A stretch of DNA of 64,000 bases from a bacterium (GTDB lineage Bacteria; Calditrichota; Calditrichia; RBG-13-44-9; J042): NCBI GenBank assembly GCA_015485355.1, contig WFTQ01000072.1, positions 1-64,000 of the forward strand, given 5' to 3'. The position numbers and the translations under genes are program-made. Shown in pieces: positions 33,854-64,000 of the stretch (position 1 is its first letter; each line of letters begins with the position of its first letter). The notes below the pieces were generated by a model. It saw nothing but the letters and a program-made list of their open reading frames with translations. It did no database searches and was not told where the DNA came from.

Positions 33854-33882
33854 TTGACTCAATTTTGGGGAGGTGTTAAATT
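33854..33882 (+). promoter_or_regulatory. predicted promoter of the 33903 gene
   Basis: TTGACT (33854-33859), a 17-nt spacer and TAAATT (33877-33882), near-identical in both boxes and flanks to the rplU promoter. The transcription start would fall near 33889, excluding ATG 33873 as the start codon. Confidence 0.7.
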
Positions 33883-33902: not shown

Positions 33903-35261
33903 ATGTTGTCCGAGCGGTTCCAGAAAACGTTCATCTCGGTGCGGGAATTTATCGAGAGCTGGGATAAAGAGATCTATGAGCTGAACCATCTGGATTTTTT
34001 TATATATCTGCTGATCAACCACGTGGGCAATCGGCTGGATCGCCAATTTTTTACCCCCGACCGCCAGAACTCGCCGTTGTTTTTAGACTTCGAAAATCTG
34101 GGAACGTTGTGTTTTAATCTGGGCGATAGCCTGGAATATTTTCTTCAGGATCACTGCTTTGGAAGTTGTTCCTTGAATTGCCCTCTGGACATGGATAATA
34201 CCGTGCATTCGGAGCGCTACGAAGGCAATGACTGGATGCGGCGTCGCATTGATCTGTTACAATCCTTTTTGAATGGCAGTATGGTGAAGGAGCAATGCCT
34301 GCGTGTAGATATTATGAATCATGTTATCCTGGAGACCCTGGTGCAGTTCTATTCCGAAGAATTGGGGGTGGACTTCGGGGAAGATGATGTGGAGATGGTG
34401 GAATTGGCGGAATTCATTGAAAATGTGATCATCGATTTCATTCGACTGGAAGGCCAGGGGTTGTTACAGCGGCCCTTTGATTCGGCGATGGATTACTTCG
34501 AAGAGTTGCTGGACATTGATGAAGATTACGCGGGGGAAGATGAATGGCAGAATGAGGGGGAGGGCTGGACGGCATCTCCCAATGAGGATAGCTGGCAACA
34601 AAGCTTTGAAGAAATCTCCCGCACTCTGGAAAAATTCCTGGAAGATTACCAAATTCAGTCTCCGGATTCGCTGAGCTGGATGACGCAGGACGTTCGCCTG
34701 TTTCAAAAATATTTGATGGAAATCGGCGGGGTCTACGACATTTATGACCTTAAGGATGAACATATCCTGGAATTTCTGGCGTTCTGGCTGGTCAAGGAAT
34801 ATGTAATGGAAGACGAAGCCCAGGTACAACATGTTTTCCGTACCATGGCCCGATTGGTGACCTGGATGTACAACAATTATGGTCTGGATTTTCGGCGTCC
34901 TTTTCTGGAATATTATGAACAGGTGAAACGCGAAGTCCCCCGGGTGATCCGGGCGCTCAATACGTATCTGAACGAATACAATATTTTTAACGTGATGCTG
35001 AATCGGGATAACCCGGAGGTGGAACAAATTTCTGGATTTTTTGAGGTAAAACAATTGCACAGCCGCATTCACAAAATCATGGATCTGGCCGATGTCCATT
35101 TTTTTGCCGAATTAAAACAGGTTCAGTTCGATTCCTCGGCCTTTCTGAATCTCCGCCCCGGGGACATCCTCCACGCTACACTGATGAAGCAGGAGGGTCA
35201 CTGGGAAGTGCTGGAAATTCATTATATTTATCCGAATATCGCACGAACGTTTATCCATTAA
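33903..35261 (+). CDS. unrecognised acidic cytoplasmic protein
   Basis: A protein of 452 residues with no signal peptide or membrane helix. I do not recognise it. It is helix-rich and acidic, with a strongly acidic linker at about 215-245 (LDIDEDYAGEDEWQNEGEG) splitting two helical halves. Cysteines cluster at about 86-94 (FGSCSLNC), which could bind metal. The last 50 residues (LRPGDILHATLMKQEGHWEVLEIHYIYP) look like a small beta-barrel. ATG 33903 has GGAGG close by (3 bases). The frame begins at 33873, but the promoter -10 lies there, so the longer version is unlikely. It has its own strong promoter and stands alone. Confidence 0.7.
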   Translation: MLSERFQKTFISVREFIESWDKEIYELNHLDFFIYLLINHVGNRLDRQFFTPDRQNSPLFLDFENLGTLCFNLGDSLEYFLQDHCFGSCSLNCPLDMDNTVHSERYEGNDWMRRRIDLLQSFLNGSMVKEQCLRVDIMNHVILETLVQFYSEELGVDFGEDDVEMVELAEFIENVIIDFIRLEGQGLLQRPFDSAMDYFEELLDIDEDYAGEDEWQNEGEGWTASPNEDSWQQSFEEISRTLEKFLEDYQIQSPDSLSWMTQDVRLFQKYLMEIGGVYDIYDLKDEHILEFLAFWLVKEYVMEDEAQVQHVFRTMARLVTWMYNNYGLDFRRPFLEYYEQVKREVPRVIRALNTYLNEYNIFNVMLNRDNPEVEQISGFFEVKQLHSRIHKIMDLADVHFFAELKQVQFDSSAFLNLRPGDILHATLMKQEGHWEVLEIHYIYPNIARTFIH

Positions 35262-35270
35262 ATTTTTCTC

Positions 35271-35299
35271 TTGACAGATTCAAAATTTTGGAATATATT
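35271..35299 (+). promoter_or_regulatory. strong promoter of the small RNA gene
   Basis: TTGACA (35271-35276), a 17-nt spacer and TATATT (35294-35299): the best consensus match in the window. The predicted start near 35305-35306 coincides with the first base of the RNA's closing stem. Confidence 0.8.
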
Positions 35300-35304
35300 T
35301 GGAG

Positions 35305-35412
35305 TGGCAATGGGGCTCTCCCCTCAAAGAAAACCCTCCCTCCCTTGAAAATAATTTGAGATTTGGCCCCATTGCCAAAAGAGGGACATCCCAAGGATGT
35401 CCCTCTTTTTTT
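35305..35412 (+). ncRNA. candidate small RNA with C-rich apical loop
   Basis: A compact transcription unit of about 108 nt with promoter, folded body and terminator. Its 5-prime end pairs perfectly over 12 bp (35305-35316 with 35366-35377). A small internal loop leads to a 6-bp stem (35323-35328 with 35355-35360). The 26-nt apical loop exposes CCCTCCCTCCC (35334-35344), which is complementary to purine-rich ribosome-binding sites such as GGGAGG. The body is followed at once by a 12-bp terminator hairpin. No open frame of interest exists inside. A trans-acting regulator that masks Shine-Dalgarno sequences is the simplest reading; the family is unknown to me. Confidence 0.75.
35380..35412 (+). 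terminator. intrinsic terminator of the small RNA
   Basis: Twelve perfect base pairs (35380-35391 with 35395-35406), loop CAA and a run of seven T ending at 35412. The intron relic starts 3 bases later. Confidence 0.93.
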
Positions 35413-37397: not shown

Positions 37398-39179
37398 ATG
37401 ATGAAAAATGGATTCAACATAGGTTTTCTGGTGTTTTTGGTGCTGGTTGTTTGCCAGGAGGTGGCAGCGCAATCCCATGCGGCATTGCGGCTTGAGGATA
37501 TTCGGTTTGGGCAATTGAAATACGGCGGTTTCCATCTGAAGACCATGAAAACGATTCAGGTAACCGCATATGGTGGGGGGGTGCCGGATCCAGGAAAGCG
37601 TCGGCGCAAAATGATGTACGATCCCTCGGGGATGTTTGCTTACGGGTGGATCTTGAATGCCGATACCCGCGAGGTCGTGTGGAAAATGACCGTGGATAAT
37701 TCCCGCGAAGATCCCTTGAGCCGTTTCGGCCGTAAGTTCGAGGGGGAGATGAAATTACCGGCCGGGGATTATGAAGCTTACTTTTTTGCTCGTAAACCTT
37801 ATCTGCGCTGGATATCCGATGGGTTCTTCAGTCTGGGAAAATTTTTGGACATGCTCATTCGAGGCGATGAGGATTGGGAACGTTTGGAGTCCCGCTTTAA
37901 AATGTCCATCGAGGGTGTGGATGAGGTCTTCTCCTCCGGGTATGTTCGCAACGCCATTCGCCAGCGGCAACAGTCCGCCGTGGTTTCCATCACCGATCTG
38001 GGAGATTCGGATTATCGACAGCAGGGCTTTTCTTTAACCAAAGGGGGAGAGTTTCTGATTTATGGAATTGGGGAGGCCTTTCACGGAGAGGAATTCGATT
38101 ACGGCTGGATCGTTACGGCCGATAACGATCGCAAAATCTGGGAGATGGTGGAAGAAAGCAGTGACCATGCCGGCGGTGCCATTAAAAATCGGGTCTGGAA
38201 GGAAACGCTTTTTCTGAATCCGGGGAGTTATTGGGTGTATTATATTACCGACGATTCGCATTCTCCGGAGCGTTGGAACGCGAATCCTCCCAGCGATCCG
38301 TTTTACTGGGGGATTACCATCGAAGGGCTGCCGGGACGTTTTGACCCCAAGGCGGTGCAAAAGTTAAATGTGGCCGCCATTACTCCCATCGTCGAGTTGA
38401 CCCGTCTGGGAAACGATGAATATGTCGAATCCAGTTTTCGGTTGAAGCAACCCATGCGAATTCGGATTCTGGCGGTGGGTGAGGGCGAAGAGGGCGAAAT
38501 GTTTGATTACGGATGGATAGTGGATGATCGCACCGGAAAAAAGGTATGGCAAATGACCTATGCACGCACCACCCATGCCGGTGGAGCGGACAAAAATCGG
38601 GCGGTGGACGAAGTGGTGTTATTGCAACCGGGAACTTATACGGTTTATTTCATTACCGATGGGTCTCACGCATTTCGCAAATGGAATGCCCGTCCACCCT
38701 ATAACCCCACCCGGTGGGGGATTACCATTTTCCCTGCCGATCCTCACGAATCCGCTGCCGCGGTGGTGGAAGTGCCTGTACCCCCACTCGAAGAGGAAGA
38801 CGCGGTGTTGGTCCGTCTGGTAAAAGTGCGCAACAATGAACATCGGAAAACGATGCTGACGCTGGATCGACCTACCCGGGTGCGGATTTATGGGATAGGA
38901 GAAGGGGACTGGGAGGAAATGTACGATTATGCGTGGATCGAGAACCGCCAAACCGGAGAAGTGGTTTGGGAGATGAGTTACGAAGAAACACGCTGGGCGG
39001 GCGGGGCGCGAAAAAATCGAAAAGTCGATCGCATAATCACCCTCCCTGCCGGTGAGTATGTGGTCCATTACCTGACCGACGATTCCCATGCTTATCGCAG
39101 CTGGAATGCCGATCCCCCGGACGACCCTTCCCATTATGGGATCACCATTTATCGGCTCAAAACCGCGGGAGAACAATAA
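37398..39179 (+). CDS. secreted protein with four tandem beta-domains
   Basis: A protein of 593 residues with a signal peptide (about 1-24). It contains four copies of a ~115-residue domain at about 30-135 (divergent), 194-310, 330-446 and 470-586. Copies 2-4 share the pattern F/YDY.WI......VW.M, then AGGA.KNR, a PG.Y.V/VY.ITD(D/G)SH motif, WNA.PP.DP and (W/H)YGITI. I do not recognise the domain; it looks like a beta-sandwich and may bind ligand or partner proteins at the surface. ATG 37401 is equally possible. The stop overlaps the next start as TAATG. Confidence 0.75.
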   Translation: MMKNGFNIGFLVFLVLVVCQEVAAQSHAALRLEDIRFGQLKYGGFHLKTMKTIQVTAYGGGVPDPGKRRRKMMYDPSGMFAYGWILNADTREVVWKMTVDNSREDPLSRFGRKFEGEMKLPAGDYEAYFFARKPYLRWISDGFFSLGKFLDMLIRGDEDWERLESRFKMSIEGVDEVFSSGYVRNAIRQRQQSAVVSITDLGDSDYRQQGFSLTKGGEFLIYGIGEAFHGEEFDYGWIVTADNDRKIWEMVEESSDHAGGAIKNRVWKETLFLNPGSYWVYYITDDSHSPERWNANPPSDPFYWGITIEGLPGRFDPKAVQKLNVAAITPIVELTRLGNDEYVESSFRLKQPMRIRILAVGEGEEGEMFDYGWIVDDRTGKKVWQMTYARTTHAGGADKNRAVDEVVLLQPGTYTVYFITDGSHAFRKWNARPPYNPTRWGITIFPADPHESAAAVVEVPVPPLEEEDAVLVRLVKVRNNEHRKTMLTLDRPTRVRIYGIGEGDWEEMYDYAWIENRQTGEVVWEMSYEETRWAGGARKNRKVDRIITLPAGEYVVHYLTDDSHAYRSWNADPPDDPSHYGITIYRLKTAGEQ

Positions 39180-46000: not shown

Positions 46001-46075
46001 GCCAAAATATTGAGCAGGCAGGGGTACGCTCAATAGAACAAGCCCGATGAGGGGAAGGATACGGACCAATTTCAT
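43004..46075 (-). CDS. second outer-membrane metallopeptidase / propeller / Omp85-type barrel fusion
   Basis: A protein of 1023 residues, paralogous in layout to the protein at 23214. It has a signal peptide (about 1-22). The gluzincin-type domain has HELVH (135-139) and a likely third ligand E168 in PPLWFSEGLAEF. TolB/PD40 propeller blades follow at about 270-590 (ISPDGRKLAFT, SWSPDGRYIAFV, SWSPDSRYIAFV, FSPDGKKLAYL). A C-terminal barrel of about 340 residues ends in WRFDLQTSSKPLWYFSLG. The peptidase ligands are intact, so activity is plausible. ATG 46075 with GGAGG upstream is the start. Confidence 0.86.
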   Translation of the reverse strand: MKLVRILPLIGLVLLSVPLPAQYFGKNKVQYKTFEWYYIQSKHFDVYFYEGGLDIAKFTAEVAESAYVQLSRDFRYQIKDRIVFIVYKSHNDWQQTNVVIEYLEEGIGGVTELFKNRIVVPFEGSYEQFRHVIHHELVHAVMNDMLYGGSIQSLIREEVTPPPLWFSEGLAEFESQGWTTRLDMVVRDATLNGYMPPLEYLQFFLVYQGGASVFKFIAETYGREKIGELLSKMRGRVSFEKVLRTTVGMNYEEFTEKWHRYLRRQYWPEVANRKEPVEFAKRLTNHKKERNYLNVSPAITPNGDKIAFISDRKGYQNIYLLSAIEGKIIKTLVKGQRSESFEELHFLRPGMSFSPDGRKLAFTAKSGPWDAIYILDIKTDNIEKYIMKLDGAFTTSWSPDGRYIAFVGNKDGQSDIYIFDLETEEVIPVTNDPFTDDQPSWSPDSRYIAFVSDRKQYVTGVEPPEDFRMSQFDYEKKDIYIVEVETGKMERITDTEWEEQNPIFSPDGKKLAYLADKNGIFNVFIRNLEDSTDFAITNVISGILQIGWDKNANKMVFTSFYDGGFDIYLMNTPLELPPVEKLEDTQFVKDMKKETLPVYARNWQPPGSDKQKLPRKTVSATKYDYSRYVFTKNRVLLRKQKKKDVELPVQAYQVSPGQYKVRKYKLKFSPDIITGSAGYNTFFGVQGYTTIAFSDLLGDHKVIMNINLLSDLKNSDLNLLYFYLKQRINYGVGGFHLVYFFFGPYGLVRYRNFGATFLMSYPFNRFKRLDFYNLWYNVYLEYLDLPIPTQKVSTMLPSLSFVHDNVLWGYTGPWDGSRYSITATYSPKYSRYSRDFKTLQVDYRKYLMINRDYSFAFRLAAGASFGENAQQFFLGGVDNWINRKFRGGLRIQRIDDIFFSEFVTPLRGAYYYERVGTRYFLANLEFRFPLIEYLALGFPKIRFFNIRGVMFYDIGSAWYGNQTFEPTTVDPFGNRRFKDLISGYGIGARVFFLYFLLRIDVAWRFDLQTSSKPLWYFSLGADL

Positions 46076-63537: not shown

Positions 63538-64000
63538 ATGCGCGTAATGGGATATACAGGAGTGGTGGTATTGCTGGGTGTATTGATTTTTTTGAGCGGA
63601 TGCGCCCGGGAGGAAGCGGAAAAAAGTGTTGCTGGTGCCGGGGTTAGTCGGGCTGTAGCGGTATTGCATCCTACAGAGGGAAATACGGTTCGCGGGATGG
63701 TGTGGTTTACTCAAGAGGAAGAGGGAGTCAGGGTGGTGGCCGAAGTTACCGGGTTGTCTCCGGGCAAGCACGGCTTTCATATTCATGAATTTGGGGATTG
63801 CAGCGATCCCCAGGCCAAGTCGGCCGGAGGGCATTTGAATCCCACCCATATGCCGCATGGTTCTCCGACTGCAGCGAAACACCACCTGGGGGATCTGGGA
63901 AACCTGGAGGCCGATGAAAAGGGCGAGGCCTATCTGGAACGGGTCTATCCCTTTTTGAACCTGGACGGTCCCCATTCGATTGTGGGGCATGCCGTCATTG
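63538..64000 (+). CDS. sodC: lipoprotein Cu/Zn superoxide dismutase (3-prime end outside window)
   Basis: The first 154 codons of a Cu/Zn superoxide dismutase, which converts superoxide to peroxide and oxygen outside the cytoplasm. A lipobox (FLSGC, C22) predicts a membrane-anchored lipoprotein. The metal ligands seen are the two copper histidines in HGFHIHEFGDC, the bridging-type histidines in KHHLGDLGN and the AGGHLNP segment. The last part, with the remaining histidine after VGHAVI, runs past the window edge. GGGAGG precedes the ATG. Confidence 0.93.
   Translation, partial: MRVMGYTGVVVLLGVLIFLSGCAREEAEKSVAGAGVSRAVAVLHPTEGNTVRGMVWFTQEEEGVRVVAEVTGLSPGKHGFHIHEFGDCSDPQAKSAGGHLNPTHMPHGSPTAAKHHLGDLGNLEADEKGEAYLERVYPFLNLDGPHSIVGHAVI

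Follow-up and report, generated by a model that had tools for sequence, protein, structure and literature searches.

A small RNA family that is absent from the Rfam catalogue, and whose structure is well supported by the comparison of its homologues, was found in the window, a stretch of 64,000 nucleotides from a Calditrichota genome assembled as 114 contigs totalling 3.44 Mb. We consider it probable that this element specifies a regulatory RNA of about 108 nt with its own promoter and terminator, whose C-rich stretches would pair with Shine-Dalgarno sequences and block ribosomes. When the whole window was searched against Rfam 15 at the gathering score, no family matched anywhere in it, and the weak matches of a 400-base stretch (E up to 10) were attributable to chance or covered the terminator only. 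The covariance search proposed in a sequence-only reading of this DNA thus came back empty from Rfam and found the element in 12 genomes of the order; these copies form a family of their own, in agreement with the statement of that reading that no known family has such a layout.

Architecture of the locus

The predicted promoter occupies positions 35271–35299 of the forward strand, with the −35 box TTGACA at 35271–35276, a spacer of 17 nt and the −10 box TATATT at 35294–35299. Read directly, TTGACA-N17-TATATT agrees with the consensus at 11 of 12 bases, which bears out the near-consensus promoter described before, and no better match was seen in the neighbourhood. The region holds three promoter matches against 2.9 expected from shuffles; a lone match would be unremarkable, and the weight of the promoter evidence comes from the fact that the promoter is conserved at a constant position. 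Upstream sequence is available for 11 homologues, and every one of them has TTGA[CT][AT], a spacer of exactly 17 nt and TATATT (once TACATT), at a distance of 5–8 nt from the hairpin. At the other end lies a predicted intrinsic terminator (35377–35412, forward strand), with its stem at 35377–35409 and seven T residues at 35406–35412. Both the stem and the T7 had been noticed earlier, but the stem is longer than the 12 bp then given, having 14–15 pairs when A-U pairs are counted. A terminator hairpin with a T-run stands behind the element in 12/12 homologues, and the core GGGACA/TGTCCC is found in most of them. The predicted 108-nt transcript folds at −52.4 kcal/mol, compared with −26.7 ± 3.3 kcal/mol for shuffled sequences (z = −7.8), and 0 of 200 shuffles folded as well. 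The promoter, stem, C-rich loop and terminator sequences, which had been taken together as a complete small RNA gene, are kept across the 12 genomes, and the conserved promoter and terminator suggest a free-standing transcription unit.

The conserved hairpin, referred to here as the type A element and described by the covariance model R2, spans 73 nt (35305–35377, forward strand); folded alone, without the terminator, it gives z = −4.7. Its closing stem joins a 5′ arm at 35305–35316 with a 3′ arm at 35366–35377 on the same strand, and the perfect 12 bp reported for it were confirmed by direct reading, with one U-G pair lengthening the helix to 13. Among the 12 homologues, nine of the 12 pairs of this stem are altered on both sides, 97.6% of the cells are paired and 21 cells are double changes. 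The covariation score of the stem was 0.471, compared with 0.251 ± 0.028 after shuffling; none of 500 shuffles reached 0.471, and slid controls gave 0.172 at most. Loss of pairing without compensation, the outcome named beforehand as speaking against the proposal, was looked for in these arms; pairing is kept, by the compensated changes just given. The consensus fold of the homologues consists of the closing stem alone plus one U-G pair. A nested 6-bp stem, also reported earlier, does exist here and in the sister species, but its register is not conserved and it is missing from the consensus fold; the inner pairs of the other homologues are A/T-rich and possible in different registers.

Two C-rich motifs lie within the closing stem. 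The 5′ bulge (35317–35324, forward strand; TCTCCCCT), with the consensus TCTCYCC and the form TCTCCCC here, is a second conserved C-rich patch beyond what had been described; this motif has a mean pairwise identity of 92% and is predicted to be unpaired at 0.54–0.81 over the homologues. The apical loop (35334–35344, forward strand) displays CCCTCCCTCCC, as had been read, and its anti-Shine-Dalgarno-like consensus CCTCCCTCC is 100% identical in the 12 homologues and predicted to be unpaired at 0.66–1.0. Elsewhere in the element, the mean pairwise identity is 72% in the stem and 63% in the other unpaired columns. Because the stem is free to drift and the unpaired motifs are fixed, the motifs would appear to be the working part of the RNA and the stem their holder.

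Homologues and their distribution

The first relatives with the element, five in number, were obtained by BLASTN. When the neighbouring protein was used in a scan, the relatives with names proved to be Calditrichota/Calditrichia assemblies, among them Caldithrix sp. RBG_13_44_9. The first covariance model, R1, describes the closing stem; built from six sequences of families f1 and f3, it recovered six f2 copies with E-values from 4e-13 to 5e-11, all of them behind the same upstream gene. Since R1 was made without f2 sequences, these copies provide the independent evidence of homology. The model R2, built from the 12 homologues, matched in 12 genomes of the order with E-values from 6e-8 to 3e-18, which are not independent because R2 was built from these same 12.

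Of the 16 genomes of the order, 12 carry the element, and they span three families; G003 was counted among the 12 although its contig is cut within the element. In three further genomes the locus is interrupted, by a run of 100 N (G005), by a contig end (G002, where the contig stops 36 nt past the start of the stop codon of the neighbour gene) or with a fragment of the gene (G007). In G010, which belongs to the same order, the upstream gene is present and the element was not found, and there it appears to be absent. Three assemblies are broken at this very locus or have a 100-N gap there (L087:4400-4499; the contig ends L085/L086; L004), and strong hairpins possibly hinder sequencing or assembly at such gapped loci.

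Type A matches were found in 0 of 24 genomes of the sister families f4–f6, and the flank behind the upstream gene, in those of these genomes whose flank was read, held nothing like the element. Neither R2, run over 385 genomes, nor another model, R3, run over 384 relatives of another genome (the two sets overlap), had a significant match outside Calditrichota; on inspection, the best match there (E = 0.02) came down to sequences without the stem or without both motifs. When the class was searched for a degenerate pattern of the C-rich pair, an 11-bp closing stem occurred once besides the known members (L158), where it is antisense to a coding frame and was judged to be chance. As far as seen in these genomes, the element seems to be restricted to one order of Calditrichota.

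Four promoter-less hairpins with the same two C-rich stretches were also found, namely L119 (G012:C220:1884-1949), L030 (G015:C5:3404-3467), L031 (G008:C101:30323-30386) and L021 (G018:C342:32478-32527). They have their layout in common with type A, but quite different stem sequences, and they lie about 60–110 nt behind other genes with a T-run directly after the stem. Because no promoter is recognisable and the stem is followed by the T-run, they look like terminators of those genes. The copy in G012 follows a 2-oxo acid dehydrogenase E1-like gene, and since orthologues of this gene are without the hairpin, the promoter-less copies are not at fixed places. They may be paralogues of type A or convergent. 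R3 and its alignment took in these four hairpins, which makes the R3 scores and pair counts partly circular; the main case, namely the R1 and R2 searches and the stem covariation in the 12 homologues, excludes them.

Proposed action and alternative readings

We propose that the drifting stem holds open the fixed bulge UCUCYCC and the fixed loop CCUCCCUCC, and that the most likely pairing partners of both are the purine-rich Shine-Dalgarno sequences (GGAGG, GGGAGG) of mRNAs, where pairing would block ribosome binding and initiation. The two motifs are complementary to Shine-Dalgarno sequences and predicted to be mostly unpaired, and four genomes of the order have the canonical anti-Shine-Dalgarno tail of 16S rRNA (GGATCACCTCCTTT). 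Judged from sequence, regulation of translation by such pairing is probable; transcription from the locus, Shine-Dalgarno pairing, repression and any protein partner are what we infer from these features. No Hfq was found over the Pfam cut-off in 40 Calditrichota genomes of the class, and none whatever in this order. Since Hfq is not detectable in the order, the pairing would take place without it or with another chaperone, for which the protein of the upstream gene is a candidate. Two weak Hfq matches occur in the class, confined to one genus.

With regard to targets, GGAGG stands before several genes in the window, and the sites pointed out earlier before rpmA (29722) and the genes at 46075 and 56127 are among them; the start at 63538, also with GGAGG, belongs to a lipoprotein gene, which may be the one that had been called sodC. 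That the loop pairs with GGAGG ribosome-binding sites is a plausible proposal, in keeping with the invariance of its C-rich sequence. The 9-nt complement before a start codon, GGAGGGAGG-N(2-12)-ATG, occurs only a few times per genome, little above the reversed control, and mostly precedes very short reading frames; no conserved or shared mRNA target with this complement before ATG was found among the loci read. Because the full complement is rare and no conserved target has it, targets, if any, would use shorter matches. A G-rich stretch before the neighbour gene was rejected as a target, as it sits in the promoter of that gene, outside the mRNA leader.

The element lies directly downstream of, and on the same strand as, an uncharacterised protein gene (33906–35261, forward strand) in all 11 contigs that reach this gene, and the stop codon of the gene in the window ends 10 bp before the −35 box. 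The gene probably starts with TTG at 33906, its start in the ORF list being GTG at 33873, and a promoter-like TTGACT-N17-TAAATT, which looks conserved in relatives, lies before it at 33854–33882. Of the 40 genomes of the class, 39 encode the protein, which has no match in Pfam or NCBIfam. Its AlphaFold2 model (pLDDT 81, pTM 0.49) combines a helical body with a barrel at the C-terminus, and Foldseek found this beta-barrel to be weakly like OB folds of nucleic-acid-binding proteins, with matches that are not significant (best E 0.16).

These findings bear on the main rival reading, which we regard as unlikely, that the C-rich bulge and loop are bound by a protein and the RNA serves as decoy or cofactor. 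The product of the adjacent gene, a cold-shock or S1-type protein and Rho are possible binders. Two invariant unpaired motifs on a single scaffold, the strict linkage to one conserved gene whose product ends in a weakly OB-like barrel and the lack of a clear mRNA target would all suit such an RNA. The C-rich loop would, moreover, also suit protein binding, and the partial pairing of the bulge in some predicted folds tells against antisense action. However, the upstream protein also occurs in sister families that lack an adjacent RNA and so does not need it, the Foldseek likeness falls short of significance, and the motif matches an extended anti-Shine-Dalgarno sequence almost exactly, which is explicable without a protein.

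The constant position directly behind one gene, so close to its stop codon, would also be expected if the hairpin and terminator were a 3′-UTR element that mainly ends and stabilises the upstream mRNA, any small RNA being a processing product or by-product, and the promoter-less elements of like layout do resemble terminators of other genes. We nevertheless hold this reading to be quite improbable: the element keeps its own promoter, with its spacing fixed, in 11/11 homologues, the terminator alone would suffice for the mRNA end, termination requires no invariant CCTCCCTCC, and sister families carry the gene without the element. On the downstream side, the genes vary between families, and the nearest one in G013 is encoded on the opposite strand; the small RNA is therefore not the leader of a fixed downstream gene. 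A cis-acting riboswitch or leader was rejected, as no constant same-strand gene follows the element. Elsewhere in the window, 37398–39179 encodes a secreted-looking protein of 593 aa with YGWI...VW.M-type repeats and no convincing Pfam family, which in several relatives adjoins an Omp85/bactofilin-like gene.

A leader peptide or tiny ORF, with a frame M[GR]LSP... opening 5 nt into the transcript, has very little probability. An ATG or GTG followed by LSP or FSP codons does stand near the 5′ end in 12/12 homologues, but the peptide varies from 5 to 31 codons and in two genomes stops before the second motif, which is read as PSLP, LPP or PPS, so that every frame is used; G006 has its start displaced, and there is no common downstream gene for attenuation. 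The tiny ORF was rejected on this frame evidence. Finally, there is next to no chance that the element is 6S RNA (RF00013), which has a similar closed stem with an unpaired interior but differs in length (about 180 nt) and sequence and has a separate gene in the same genome (G000:C22:16987-17168, 64.2 bits, over the cut-off), or another catalogued RNA, given no Rfam match at the gathering score and no plausible weak one. Across the class, 18 of 40 genomes have a 6S RNA match that exceeds the Rfam cut-off.

Anti-Shine-Dalgarno pairing thus remains our preferred reading. A more far-reaching form of it, in which the RNA is an order-specific, Hfq-independent riboregulator of translation initiation, the upstream gene encodes a dedicated new RNA-binding protein and the promoter-less copies act as terminator-derived small RNAs in some genomes, is speculative and seems doubtful as a whole.

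Significance and relation to known systems

For Calditrichota, a single annotated sRNA is listed in one review (PMC9029176), and the element described here would give this little-studied phylum a well-supported family of small regulatory RNAs. The anti-Shine-Dalgarno loop solution of Alphaproteobacteria and Firmicutes would then also be used in a phylum far from both and lacking a detectable Hfq, and this suggests a convergent origin of the design. In addition, the analysis supplies a covariance model, a promoter, a candidate partner protein and a testable target rule.

The alphar14/cuckoo RNAs of Alphaproteobacteria (NfeR1, SmelA075) are trans-acting and carry the ultraconserved anti-Shine-Dalgarno motif CCUCCUCCC, unpaired, on divergent stems (PMC10746234, PMC3927594). 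The Calditrichota RNA likewise combines a fixed loop motif with a divergent stem (loop 100%, stem 72%, 9/12 pairs compensated). However, the alphar14/cuckoo RNAs have three or four hairpins, each with an unpaired CCUCCUCCC, whereas the Calditrichota RNA has one motif hairpin and a terminator; its motifs are UCUCYCC and CCUCCCUCC, the RNAs have no sequence match, and the phylum is different. By catalogue, no Rfam 15 family was matched at the gathering score, a result that does not assume a dedicated alphar14 model in Rfam. The sole alphaproteobacterial-type match in the stretch at E up to 10, suhB/mmgR, was rejected at 14 bits against a cut-off of 41. The 3′ UTR that contains CcsR1-4 of Rhodobacter belongs to a gene encoding a small RNA-binding protein (PMC8625941), and the Calditrichota RNA also lies behind one conserved gene. 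Unlike alphar14 and CcsR, it belongs to an order in which no Hfq was detected and has its own promoter behind the neighbour gene.

In LhrC and RsaE, UCCC motifs bind Shine-Dalgarno sequences (PMC4132741, PMC9217828). The UCCC-motif sRNAs of Firmicutes (RsaE/RoxS, LhrC, RNAIII, FsrA) differ from the present RNA in their folds and their shorter motifs, with no homology found, but resemble it in their redundant unpaired C-rich motifs. Overall, the Calditrichota RNA carries a predicted unpaired motif complementary to Shine-Dalgarno sequences, the feature by which it would be, in kind, a trans-acting anti-Shine-Dalgarno sRNA.
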